Assembly: GCF_907165195.1 (NCBI RefSeq)
Contig: NZ_OU015584.1
Coordinates: 1,612,001-1,676,000, forward strand
Reading direction: 5' to 3'
Length of the DNA: 64,000 nt
Source: Parvicella tangerina
Lineage (GTDB): Bacteria; Bacteroidota; Bacteroidia; Flavobacteriales_D; Parvicellaceae
Below, in pieces: positions 1,681 to 6,763 of this stretch (the stretch's first letter is position 1; each line of letters opens with the position of its first letter). The notes beneath the pieces were generated by a model. The model did no database searches. It was not told where the DNA came from and saw only the letters and a list, made by a program, of their open reading frames with translations. Made by a program: the position numbers and the translations under genes.

Positions 1681-1939
1681 AAAAACCAAGGAGACTGAGC
1701 TCAAACCCCGCGCAAGTATCACCTCCAAAAACACCAAAAGGAGCACCCAATAAAGGAGACTGAGTTTGCACCCCGCGCAAGTATCACTCCCAAGAACATG
1801 AAATAAAGCAATAAATAAAGCAATAAATAAAGGAGACTGAGTTTGCGCCTTGCGCAAGTATCATCTCCAAGAACATGAAATAAAGTAACAAATAAAGGCG
1901 ACTGAGTTTGCGCTCCGCGCAAGTATCGAAGTCCCGACT
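1681..1939 (+). repeat. Hairpin repeat block 1: four 65-bp tandem units upstream of the GIY-YIG gene
   Basis: Units begin GACTGAG at 1693, 1758, 1835 and 1900. Spacing is 65, 77 and 65 bp; the 77 comes from a 12-bp internal duplication (GCAATAAATAAA) near 1808-1831. Each unit has an inner hairpin (TTTGCGC, short loop, GCGCAA) followed by GTATC. The last copy continues to CGAAGTCCCGACT, so its ends pair as GACT/AGTC. The linker before each hairpin resembles the 3' end of the GIY-YIG gene (AACACCAAAAGGAG, then CCCAATAAAGGAGACTGAG). Confidence 0.93.
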
Positions 1940-1950
1940 AAAAAACACCA

Positions 1951-2271
1951 ATGTCAAACGGCTACACATACATATTACAATGCGCAGACGGAACCTATTA
2001 CACAGGAAGCACAAAAGAACTAGAACGTAGATTAGGACAACACAAAGCAGGAGAAGGAGCAAACCACACTAAAAGCAGACTGCCAGTAGAATTGGTCTAT
2101 TATGAAGAATATGATCGCATCGATGAAGCCTTTTACCGTGAAAAACAAATACAAGGATGGAGTAGAAGAAAAAAAGAAGCATTGATAAACGGTCAATTTG
2201 AAAAACTACCAGCATTAGCCAAAAAAGTATTCCGAAAAACACCAAAAGGAGTACCCAATAAAGGAGACTGA
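1951..2271 (+). CDS. Small GIY-YIG family nuclease inserted between cas1 and cas2
   Basis: A 106-aa single-domain GIY-YIG protein. The signature is GYTYIL at 4-9 and YYTGST at 16-21. The catalytic Arg is in ELERRLGQH (about 24-32) and the metal-binding Glu in REKQIQGW (about 83). GIY-YIG enzymes nick or cleave DNA; many free-standing ones in Bacteroidota have no assigned role. The last 15 or so codons (FRKTPKGVPNKGD) and the TGA stop lie inside a hairpin-repeat unit, and nearly the same DNA occurs upstream at 1728-1765 without an ORF. This suggests the gene and repeats form one unit that spread together (inference). The gene is co-oriented with cas1 and cas2 and is not a usual type II-C component. 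Confidence 0.9.
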   Translation: MSNGYTYILQCADGTYYTGSTKELERRLGQHKAGEGANHTKSRLPVELVYYEEYDRIDEAFYREKQIQGWSRRKKEALINGQFEKLPALAKKVFRKTPKGVPNKGD

Positions 2272-2500
2272 GTTTGCGCCCCGCGCAAGTATCACCCCCA
2301 AAAACACCAAAAAGAGTAATAAATAAAGGAGACTGAGTTCGTGCGCAGCACGAGTACCAGTTCCCAAAAACATGAAACAAAGCAATAAATAAAGACGCTC
2401 AGCTCACACCTCGCACAAGTATCACTCCCAAAAACACCAAAAAGAGTAACAAATAAAGGAGACTGAGTTTGCGCTCCGCGCAAGTATCGAAGTCCCGACT
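2236..2500 (+). repeat. Hairpin repeat block 2: four tandem units downstream of the GIY-YIG gene
   Basis: Units begin at 2266, 2331, 2394 (degenerate) and 2461. The first overlaps the end of the GIY-YIG ORF. The second has a changed inner stem (TTCGTGC paired with GCACGAG instead of TTTGCGC with GCGCAA), a compensated change that supports a functional hairpin. The last copy ends CGAAGTCCCGACT like the last copy of block 1, eight bases before the cas2 start. Confidence 0.92.
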
Positions 2501-2924: not shown

Positions 2925-3716
2925 GTTGTAAATCCCTACTAAAGTAAGTAATTGAAAGCAATTCACAACAGTCTTGCGTTCTGGTCTCCCACTCGCTGCG
3001 TTGTAAATCCCTACTAAAGTAAGTAATTGAAAGCAATTCACAACCCTTTCTGTGGTGGAGCTGGCTTAGAGTTGTTGTAAATCCCTACTAAAGTAAGTAA
3101 TTGAAAGCAATTCACAACTAATCTTTCATTTCTTTAGCATAAAATAATGTTGTAAATCCCTACTAAAGTAAGTAATTGAAAGCAATTCACAACTATCATC
3201 GATATTTTTATCCACACCACTTAGTTGTAAATCCCTACTAAAGTAAGTAATTGAAAGCAATTCACAACAGGATCATTCACAGCGATATAGATTTTAGGTT
3301 GTAAATCCCTACTAAAGTAAGTAATTGAAAGCAATTCACAACTCTTGACTTCTACTATCCTCAATCAATGAAGTTGTAAATCCCTACTAAAGTAAGTAAT
3401 TGAAAGCAATTCACAACGATTTTACGCCATTAAATCTATTTTGTAAAGTTGTAAATCCCTACTAAAGTAAGTAATTGAAAGCAATTCACAACTCCATTCT
3501 CCTGAATAATAAATAGCTGGAAGTTGTAAATCCCTACTAAAGTAAGTAATTGAAAGCAATTCACAACGTATTGATAGGTAAGAACATTTTTTATTCGGTT
3601 GTAAATCCCTACTAAAGTAAGTAATTGAAAGCAATTCACAACTACTAACTTCCCGTAATTCATACTGAATAGTTGTAAATCCCTACTAAAGTAAGTAATT
3701 GAAAGCAATTCACAAC
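2925..3716 (-). CRISPR. CRISPR array, 11 repeats of 45 bp, 10 spacers of 29-30 bp
   Basis: Repeats start at 2925, 3000, 3074, 3149, 3224, 3298, 3373, 3448, 3523, 3598 and 3672. All appear identical: on the + strand they begin GTTGTAAATCCCT and end GCAATTCACAAC, with terminal inverted GTTGT/ACAAC. Spacers are all different. The minus-strand form (GTTGTGAATTGCTTTCAA...) matches the usual crRNA sense of Bacteroidota type II-C repeats, and the decayed repeat lies at the left end, so transcription is probably leftward with new spacers added on the right. Only 66 bp separate the last repeat from the next gene, so the leader is short or overlaps that gene. No clear tracrRNA was found; it may lie left of the window. 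Confidence 0.97.
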
Positions 3717-3782
3717 AAGTATTCTATCAAGGATGTTTTTCACAAAACAGTTTAGATATTCAAGCCAAGGAATTTGAGTCAG

Positions 3783-4921: not shown

Positions 4922-5152
4922 CAACTGTCCACCATCAACACCCCTGGTCAGTTCGAGTGATTTATGCGACCGAAGGAGCGTAAACTGTATCGAGAACAAC
5001 TGTCCACCATCAACACCCCTCGTCAGTTCGAGTGATTTATGCGACCGAAGGAGCGTAAATTGTATCGAGAACAACTGTCAACCATCAACACCCCTCGTCA
5101 GTTCGAGTGATTTATGCGACCGAAGGAGCGTAAATTGTATCGAGAACAACTG
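4922..5152. repeat. 75-bp tandem repeat, three copies, each with a hairpin
   Basis: Hairpin cores run 4949-4997, 5024-5072 and 5099-5147, spaced exactly 75 bp. Each runs from CAGTTCGAGTG to GTATCGAGAAC, so the ends pair as GTTC/GAAC. The inner part contains TTTATGCG and CGTAAA, which also pair partly. The linker (CAACTGTC, ACCATCAACACCCCT) is built of the heptamer motif that fills the next 230 bp. Copies differ at few positions, suggesting recent amplification. Confidence 0.92.
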
Positions 5153-5380
5153 TCAACCATCAACCATCAACCATCAACTGTCAACTATCAACTATCAACT
5201 ATCAATTATCAACTATCAACTCTCAACCATCAACTGTCAACCATCAACCATCAACTGTCAACCATCAACTGTCAACTATCAAGTATCAACTGTCAATTAT
5301 CAACTATCAATTATCAACTATCAATTATCAACTGTCAACTGTCAACTATCAATTATCAACTGTCCAGCGTCCAACATCAG
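5148..5380. repeat. Heptamer tandem array (CAACNNT type, about 33 copies)
   Basis: The stretch is a run of 7-bp units such as CAACCAT, CAACTGT, CAACTAT and CAATTAT, with positions 1-3 and 7 nearly constant. Because 7 is not a multiple of 3 the array is open in several frames and encodes a heptapeptide pattern, but nothing supports translation. It resembles in form the heptameric short tandem repeats of cyanobacteria. After it, short ACTAGGTC-type repeats occur at about 5400-5445. Confidence 0.9.
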
Positions 5381-5570
5381 GCATCAAAACCCCAACCCAT
5401 CTAGGTGTCATCTAGGTCCCAACTAGGTCCGAACTAGGTCTCAACCGCTACTTTAAACGTTAGACTAACGCCTTACTGGAGGTGCTTTGTAGGCACCAGA
5501 CACGCCAGAGACACGCTAAACACACGAGAACCAGAGCCATTTTTGGAACGGTTCTTGAACTTACTACACC
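5381..5570. other. Intergenic region upstream of the 219-aa orphan gene
   Basis: It contains a short direct-repeat cluster (CTAGGTC, four times, 5400-5442) and a hairpin (GGTGC, TTTGTAG, GCACC) near 5479-5496. No promoter matching TAnnTTTG is evident close to the start codon at 5571. Confidence 0.5.
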
Positions 5571-6598: not shown

Positions 6599-6763
6599 TC
6601 GATCGAGTGACGAGACAATTGTCTCGTTGTATCTAGACCCTCCTCACCGCAGTTCGAGTGATTACACCGACTGATAAGGAGGAGTAATTGTATCTAGACC
6701 CTCCTCACCGCAGTTCGAGTGATTACACCGACTGATAAGGAGGAGTAATTGTATCGAGAACTG
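6599..6763. repeat. Three hairpin repeats downstream of metK
   Basis: Copies lie at about 6599-6637, 6651-6697 and 6711-6763. All have GAGTG before and GTATC after an inner hairpin. The first contains an 18-bp perfect palindrome (ACGAGACAATTGTCTCGT). The others contain GTGATTAC paired with GTAATTG around CACCGACTGATAAGGAG. The first two end TATCTAGACCC and the last TATCGAGAACTG. The conserved frame with exchanged inner stems is the same design as in the blocks around the GIY-YIG gene. Confidence 0.87.

Follow-up and report, generated by a model that had tools for sequence, protein, structure and literature searches.

A GIY-YIG nuclease gene with flanking hairpin repeats in the cas1-cas2 junction of Parvicella tangerina, a probable member of a REP/RAYT-like nuclease-repeat system

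Introduction

In REP/REPIN systems, short hairpins flank the gene of an enzyme, the RAYT, and are dispersed in intergenic DNA, often as inverted doublets (PMC3116915). The RAYT gene is usually low-copy, can be vertically inherited and appears to co-evolve with the repeats (PMC3116915). The CGTC-tagged REPs were reported in 2013 to be without a dedicated transposase (PMC3733652). GIY-YIG is a fold of homing endonucleases (PMC1564403).

This work deals with a window of 64 kb (the whole stretch of DNA that was analysed) from the closed 3.98-Mb genome of Parvicella tangerina, in which a GIY-YIG nuclease gene and two blocks of hairpin repeats separate cas1 from cas2. Repeats of the CTGAGCTTGTCGAAG and TTCGAG...GTATCGAGAA types are scattered in many bacterial genomes, and we know of no agent that produces them. 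In the literature searched, which left preprints and most subscription papers outside, no earlier description was found of GIY-YIG proteins with REPs, RAYTs or dispersed or hairpin repeats, of the repeat sequences themselves, or of insertions between cas1 and cas2.

The GIY-YIG system described below shares with REP/RAYT the flanking hairpins, their dispersal, the inverted doublets, an apparent co-evolution with the enzyme, and an enzyme gene that is mostly low-copy and can be vertically inherited; dispersal and inverted doublets are seen in other genomes, but only weakly in the genome of the window itself. The two systems differ in their enzyme, which is a GIY-YIG protein (PF01541 only) here and an HUH/Y1 transposase in REP/RAYT, and in their hairpin, which has a GAG-X..X'-T/C-CGA core here in place of the GTAG-tagged palindrome of REPs. 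Unlike CGTC REPs, the window repeat is not CGTC-tagged. With a probability that we put at roughly three in four, the insert is a member of a widespread, REP/RAYT-like nuclease-repeat system in which a GIY-YIG nuclease is kept with its own, presumably mobile, hairpins.

Results

The insert between cas1 and cas2

The features of the window to which the text refers are the following.

3-707, + strand: reading frame 5' of cas1, entering as an open frame from the window edge; probably the end of cas9 (type II)
781-1674, + strand: cas1, type II (PF01867, E 2.9e-29; TIGR03639 cas1_NMENI, E 6e-88)
1681-1940, + strand: left block of four repeat units (1681-1751, 1752-1828, 1829-1893, 1894-1940)
1900-1933, + strand: complete core hairpin, T class, from the hairpin scan (GACT-GAG-T.TTGCGC.TCC.GCGCAA.GTAT-CGA-AGTC)
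1951-2271, + strand: GIY-YIG nuclease, 106 aa, UPF0213-like, C-terminal motif LAKKVFRK (PF01541, E 2.3e-19)
2260-2501, + strand: right block of four repeat units (2260-2324, 2325-2390, 2391-2454, 2455-2501)
2461-2494, + strand: complete core hairpin, T class, from the hairpin scan, with a loop identical to that at 1900-1933
2508-2852, + strand: cas2 (PF09827, E 2.6e-18; TIGR01573)
2925-3717, + strand: CRISPR array (tandem repeat finder, period 75; sequence)
4951-5147, + strand: 75-bp tandem array with three orphan T-class hairpins (4951-4997, 5026-5072, 5101-5147) and no nuclease gene
6711-6763, + strand: orphan T-class hairpin in a 61-bp tandem repeat (hairpin scan, tandem repeat finder)

The frame at 3-707 had no match in Pfam; it is read as the end of cas9 because it lies before a type II cas1 and resembles, by eye, the frames upstream of cas1 in loci L072 and L075. 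Cas1, the GIY-YIG protein and Cas2 were identified by Pfam with rounded E values of 3e-29 (PF01867), 2e-19 (PF01541) and 3e-18 (PF09827), respectively. From the end of cas1 (1674) to the start of cas2 (2508) the gap measures exactly 833 bp. Coordinates and Pfam thereby confirm what an earlier reading of the letters alone (hereafter the original prediction) had described, namely an 833-bp gap that contains a 106-aa GIY-YIG gene and two blocks of four units.

Most inner units are 64-66 bp long; two exceed this (71 and 77 bp with the boundaries chosen here), and the final unit of each block is shortened to 46-47 bp. The alignment of the left with the right block covers 255 bp at about 80%. Both terminate in GTATCGAAGTCCCGACT, directly 5' of the ATG of the GIY-YIG gene and of the ATG of cas2, and the right block starts within the 3' end of the nuclease gene, so that 11-12 C-terminal codons and the TGA belong to the repeat; both features had been predicted and hold true. 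A 17-mer of the unit had seven matches in the window at ≤3 mismatches (0.34 expected). In the 3.98-Mb genome the 65-bp unit occurs solely at the cas1-cas2 locus, and it was dropped as a candidate mobile unit because it is not dispersed. Nor could the repeats be assigned to a known RNA family, as Rfam gave only tRNAs (10 loci).

A complete hairpin is present only in the last unit of each block (1900-1933 and 2461-2494). A scan of the whole 64 kb for this core hairpin gave six matches compared with a mean of 0.5 in shuffled sequence: two of them close the repeat blocks, one each, and the other four belong to two tandem arrays approximately 2.5-4.5 kb downstream. The window hairpin, GACT-GAGT-(inner hairpin)-GTAT-CGA-AGTC, fits the general core form derived below from other genomes. 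All six hairpins belong to the T class, as does the window nuclease (LAKKVF), and about three further T-class hairpins were detected in 0.8 Mb of the same genome sampled outside the window. Thus, the 65-bp unit of the original prediction exists at this locus but is confined to it, and the conserved feature is the core hairpin.

Directly 3' of the orphan hairpin array, positions 5147-5361 hold about 31 copies of the 7-bp sequence CAACTAT, which create a repetitive open frame of 96 aa (5114-5404).

Properties of the nuclease

In the 106-aa protein Pfam found no domain besides GIY-YIG (PF01541), and there was no matching model in NCBIfam or PADLOC. The catalytic residues Y7, Y17 and E64 are invariant among 32 sequences, and R27 is conserved in at least 90% of them. 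Close homologues occur in Bacteroidota (e.g. at locus L046). A profile search of PDB returned UPF0213 proteins first (1zg2, E 6e-23; 1ywl, E 9e-18) and Slx1 next, and the same order, UPF0213 before Slx1, was obtained by structure comparison of an AlphaFold model (mean pLDDT 82, with a less certain tail).

UPF0213 (YhbQ/YazA-type) proteins are therefore nearest to the window nuclease in both fold and sequence. Unlike them, the hairpin-associated nucleases have an extra C-terminal tail; 13 of 21 short-tail homologues were without hairpins. Slx1 proteins, the second-nearest structural neighbours, act on branched DNA. Slx1 is a eukaryotic, larger protein that partners with Slx4 and, to our knowledge, is not associated with repeats.

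Hairpins accompany nuclease genes in other genomes

Close GIY-YIG homologues were collected from many genomes, and simple ORF calls served as control ORFs. Direct repeats bracketed the gene in 22 of 38 homologues and in 9 of 342 control ORFs from the same regions, and at first the repeat sequences around different homologues seemed unrelated. In a hairpin scan that allowed a two-base internal mismatch, GA opposite GA was the single outlier (11.8 per 10 kb near the nuclease, 0.82 at distances >2 kb), corresponding to a 14-fold higher density near the nuclease that no other mismatch combination approached. Tandem G.A mismatches of the Y-GA-R type are stable in DNA hairpins. The general form of the core is stem(4+ bp)-GAG-X...X'-T/C-CGA-stem, where X pairs with X'.

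Within approximately 400 bp of the gene, this core was found at 35 of 36 previously unseen GIY-YIG homologues and at 19 of 263 control ORFs (7%), with means of 3.1 and 0.11 core matches, respectively. The T-class pattern TTCGAGT..GTATCGAGAA was present in 28 of 197 genomes, in up to 89 copies; the reversed control pattern was present in none. Genomes with the T-class repeat had a T-class nuclease match in 21 of 28 cases, those without it in 43 of 169 (p 7e-7, kinship ignored), and seven of the 28 had no nuclease match at E 1e-12. Neither related nucleases that consistently lack repeats nor repeats that are equally common without the nuclease, the two cases which the original prediction had held against a pairing, were found in these comparisons.

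The number of repeats can be high, as in Microbacterium, where the repeat flanking the nuclease had 182 genomic matches. Neighbouring hairpins ≤60 bp apart were inverted with respect to each other in 130 of 171 cases. In Actinobacteria, 4 of the 149 genomes searched had matches. The species of one genus carry the nuclease at a constant locus, and hence it can be vertically inherited.

These counts also bear on the idea that the nuclease gene is located by chance in repeats of an ordinary kind, be it a minisatellite or a family of intergenic hairpins. The 65-bp units are indeed tandem and confined to one locus of the genome, and other tandem arrays lie nearby; chance, however, explains neither the frequency of the core at unseen homologues relative to control ORFs nor the match between loop class and protein tail (see below), and we regard this explanation as very improbable.

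The genome of the window has two further GIY-YIG genes (L003:1166-2124 and L004:1431-1855), which are bracketed by different repeats: units of about 111 bp (GTCATCTCGACC..CGAAATGACA), and a 40-bp hairpin present to either side (AAAAGGTCTAGTTTTGCTAGACCTTTT).

The C-terminal tail predicts the loop class

The loop class of the hairpins tracks the C-terminal motif of the nuclease. A three-class rule, written by inspection after the first set had been viewed, fits all 68 nonredundant loci (68/68) in two sequence clades. Detector and rule were then applied unchanged to 40 fresh loci, where 27 of 28 classifiable nonredundant loci agreed; these unseen loci share the phylum and partly the species with the first set. 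A four-class version, in which (i) KKx[FW] goes with T...TAT, (ii) CxN with CGnAG, (iii) SK[SN] with CYTGY, and (iv) AYRD with GNNCT, agreed at 65 of 68 loci of the first set and 27 of 30 of the second. Since this refinement followed sight of the unseen result, only the three-class figure represents a test on unseen data. On a tree built without the tail, of which few branches are supported, there were 37 changes of either label, and 90 of 94 agreed.

Homologues beside CGTC-tagged REPs

GIY-YIG homologues with an NPxW tail were found on alpha- and gammaproteobacterial plasmids (Azospirillum, Shinella, Neorhizobium, Rhizobium, Photobacterium and Aeromonas). CGTC-tagged REPs flank 6 of 12 of these loci, with copies on both sides in four, and reach a density of 1.9 as compared with 0.27 per kb. 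They carry the tag CGTC or TGTC, a stem starting with AT and the tail CCA, none of which was seen in the window hairpins. A link between GIY-YIG proteins and CGTC REPs is proposed on this basis.

The cas1-cas2 junction as insertion site

In relatives from the family there is no space between cas1 and cas2, which touch or overlap. Among 67 distinct type II junctions (69 rows, two junctions being counted twice) the gap is <60 nt in 57, in line with the predicted near-seamless state of this junction. The window operon is unlike these 57 in that both genes are present but not directly adjacent. In all seven junctions with a gap >300 bp the space contains a small gene for a nuclease or a transposase: GIY-YIG in the window, G680, G150 and G462; an IS200-like Y1 transposase with palindromes at L289 (G643); and a DUF559 nuclease gene flanked by CCCCTCTCTTAAAAGAGAGGGG / GGGGATGAGTTC-type repeats at L290 (G283) and L292 (G722), with a remnant at L293 (G080). 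Elements of this kind have repeatedly come to occupy the cas1-cas2 junction (four with GIY-YIG, one with Y1, two with DUF559). Leaving aside the window, which was the starting point, and G462, to which the nuclease search had led, the GIY-YIG count free of selection is 2 of 65. The DUF559 gene and its flanking repeats are possibly a third nuclease-repeat pairing. Among the cas1-cas2 junctions compared, none was close enough to fix the element ends or a target duplication.

A restriction of the nuclease to CRISPR loci was rejected, as it occurs in many operons; comparable elements sit between murG and murC, between type I restriction genes, and between sufB and sufC.

Recruitment of the element for control of CRISPR adaptation was considered, either by hairpins in the mRNA that set the Cas1:Cas2 ratio or by a nuclease that aids spacer acquisition. 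In favour of this model are the exact position of the insert between cas1 and cas2, in the direction of coding, and the recurrence of such elements at the junction in other families (G680, G150, G462). Against it stand the like elements in the operons named above and the unrelated Y1 and DUF559 genes that occupy the same junction. Moreover, hairpins near the nuclease are found on both strands, and the mismatches in their stems, read on the folded strand, are not biased towards G-T relative to A-C (21 vs 54), so that there is no pointer to an RNA role. Two of the three other junction nucleases look decayed from their sequences, which argues against a conserved CRISPR role: in G680 one glycine and one arginine of the conserved motifs are changed, and in G462 the reading frame is broken, possibly by a sequencing error. 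With such elements in unrelated operons and decayed-looking copies at the junction, the regulation of Cas1/Cas2 dosage suggested in the original prediction found no support, and recruitment for CRISPR control appears unlikely.

Still less probable in our view is a free-standing homing endonuclease with incidental repeats, whose cleavage of an unoccupied cas1-cas2 junction would lead to its copying into that site by recombination. Its appeal lies in the GIY-YIG fold, as I-TevI-type homing endonucleases share their catalytic domain with the window nuclease, and in the occupation of the junction on at least four occasions. The window nuclease differs from the I-TevI type, however, in that no further domain was found and no intron is involved, and in that it is the flanks that vary with the enzyme, and not the target. 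Enzymes at the junction fall into different tail classes, with correspondingly different repeats around them, which leaves them without a common target, and homologues occur at many unrelated sites. A homing enzyme does not recognise the DNA at its own flanks (PMC1564403); in the present case, by contrast, the hairpin at the flank varies with the enzyme.

Judged by eye from their neighbours, the GIY-YIG elements at L092, L047, L018, L021 and L020 apparently lie between type I restriction-modification genes. Further GIY-YIG genes are located between sufB and sufC (L337, Azospirillum) and between an MmeI-type restriction gene and drmA of DISARM (L338, Planktothrix).

Discussion

The flanking hairpins and the tail-loop match give good support to a REP/RAYT-like pair built on a GIY-YIG enzyme, as put forward in the original prediction; transposition, and the autonomous/non-autonomous relation of the two partners that it had also proposed, are inferred rather than observed. 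In such a nuclease-repeat system the C-terminal tail would read the hairpin, and the catalytic domain would nick or cut it, either as single-stranded DNA or as a hairpin extruded during replication. Repair of the cut might then copy or move hairpins and, at times, the gene. RAYTs are thought to act similarly for REPINs. At the locus studied here, the element probably landed between cas1 and cas2, a junction that is tolerant of such insertions, and the hairpin unit would afterwards have been amplified in tandem. Most likely, the CRISPR operon carries the element along as a selfish or neutral passenger.

Taking a wider view, we lean towards the idea that single-domain GIY-YIG nucleases constitute a second, independently evolved REP-maintaining class. 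Their tail would be a code for at least four loop classes, a fifth class would serve CGTC REPs, these enzymes would have produced much of the widespread intergenic DNA that consists of TGAG...TCGA repeats, and cas1-cas2 junctions would be a preferred landing place. With a GIY-YIG partner and a tail that predicts the class, binding and cutting are directly testable. If true, this would amount to a compact, apparently modular code for the recognition of DNA hairpins, and the tightly packed cas1-cas2 operon would be one that repeatedly accepts such elements.

In a family relative (G030), a RAYT-like gene is located between cas9 and cas1 (L071:859-1434). Its match to REP_Tyr_transpos (E 8e-13) is under the curated cut-off, and it is flanked by GATACGATGACTCCAAGTCATCGTATC palindromes near positions 276, 800, 1449 and 2768. 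Gene and palindromes together represent a REP/RAYT element in the same type of operon as the window insert.
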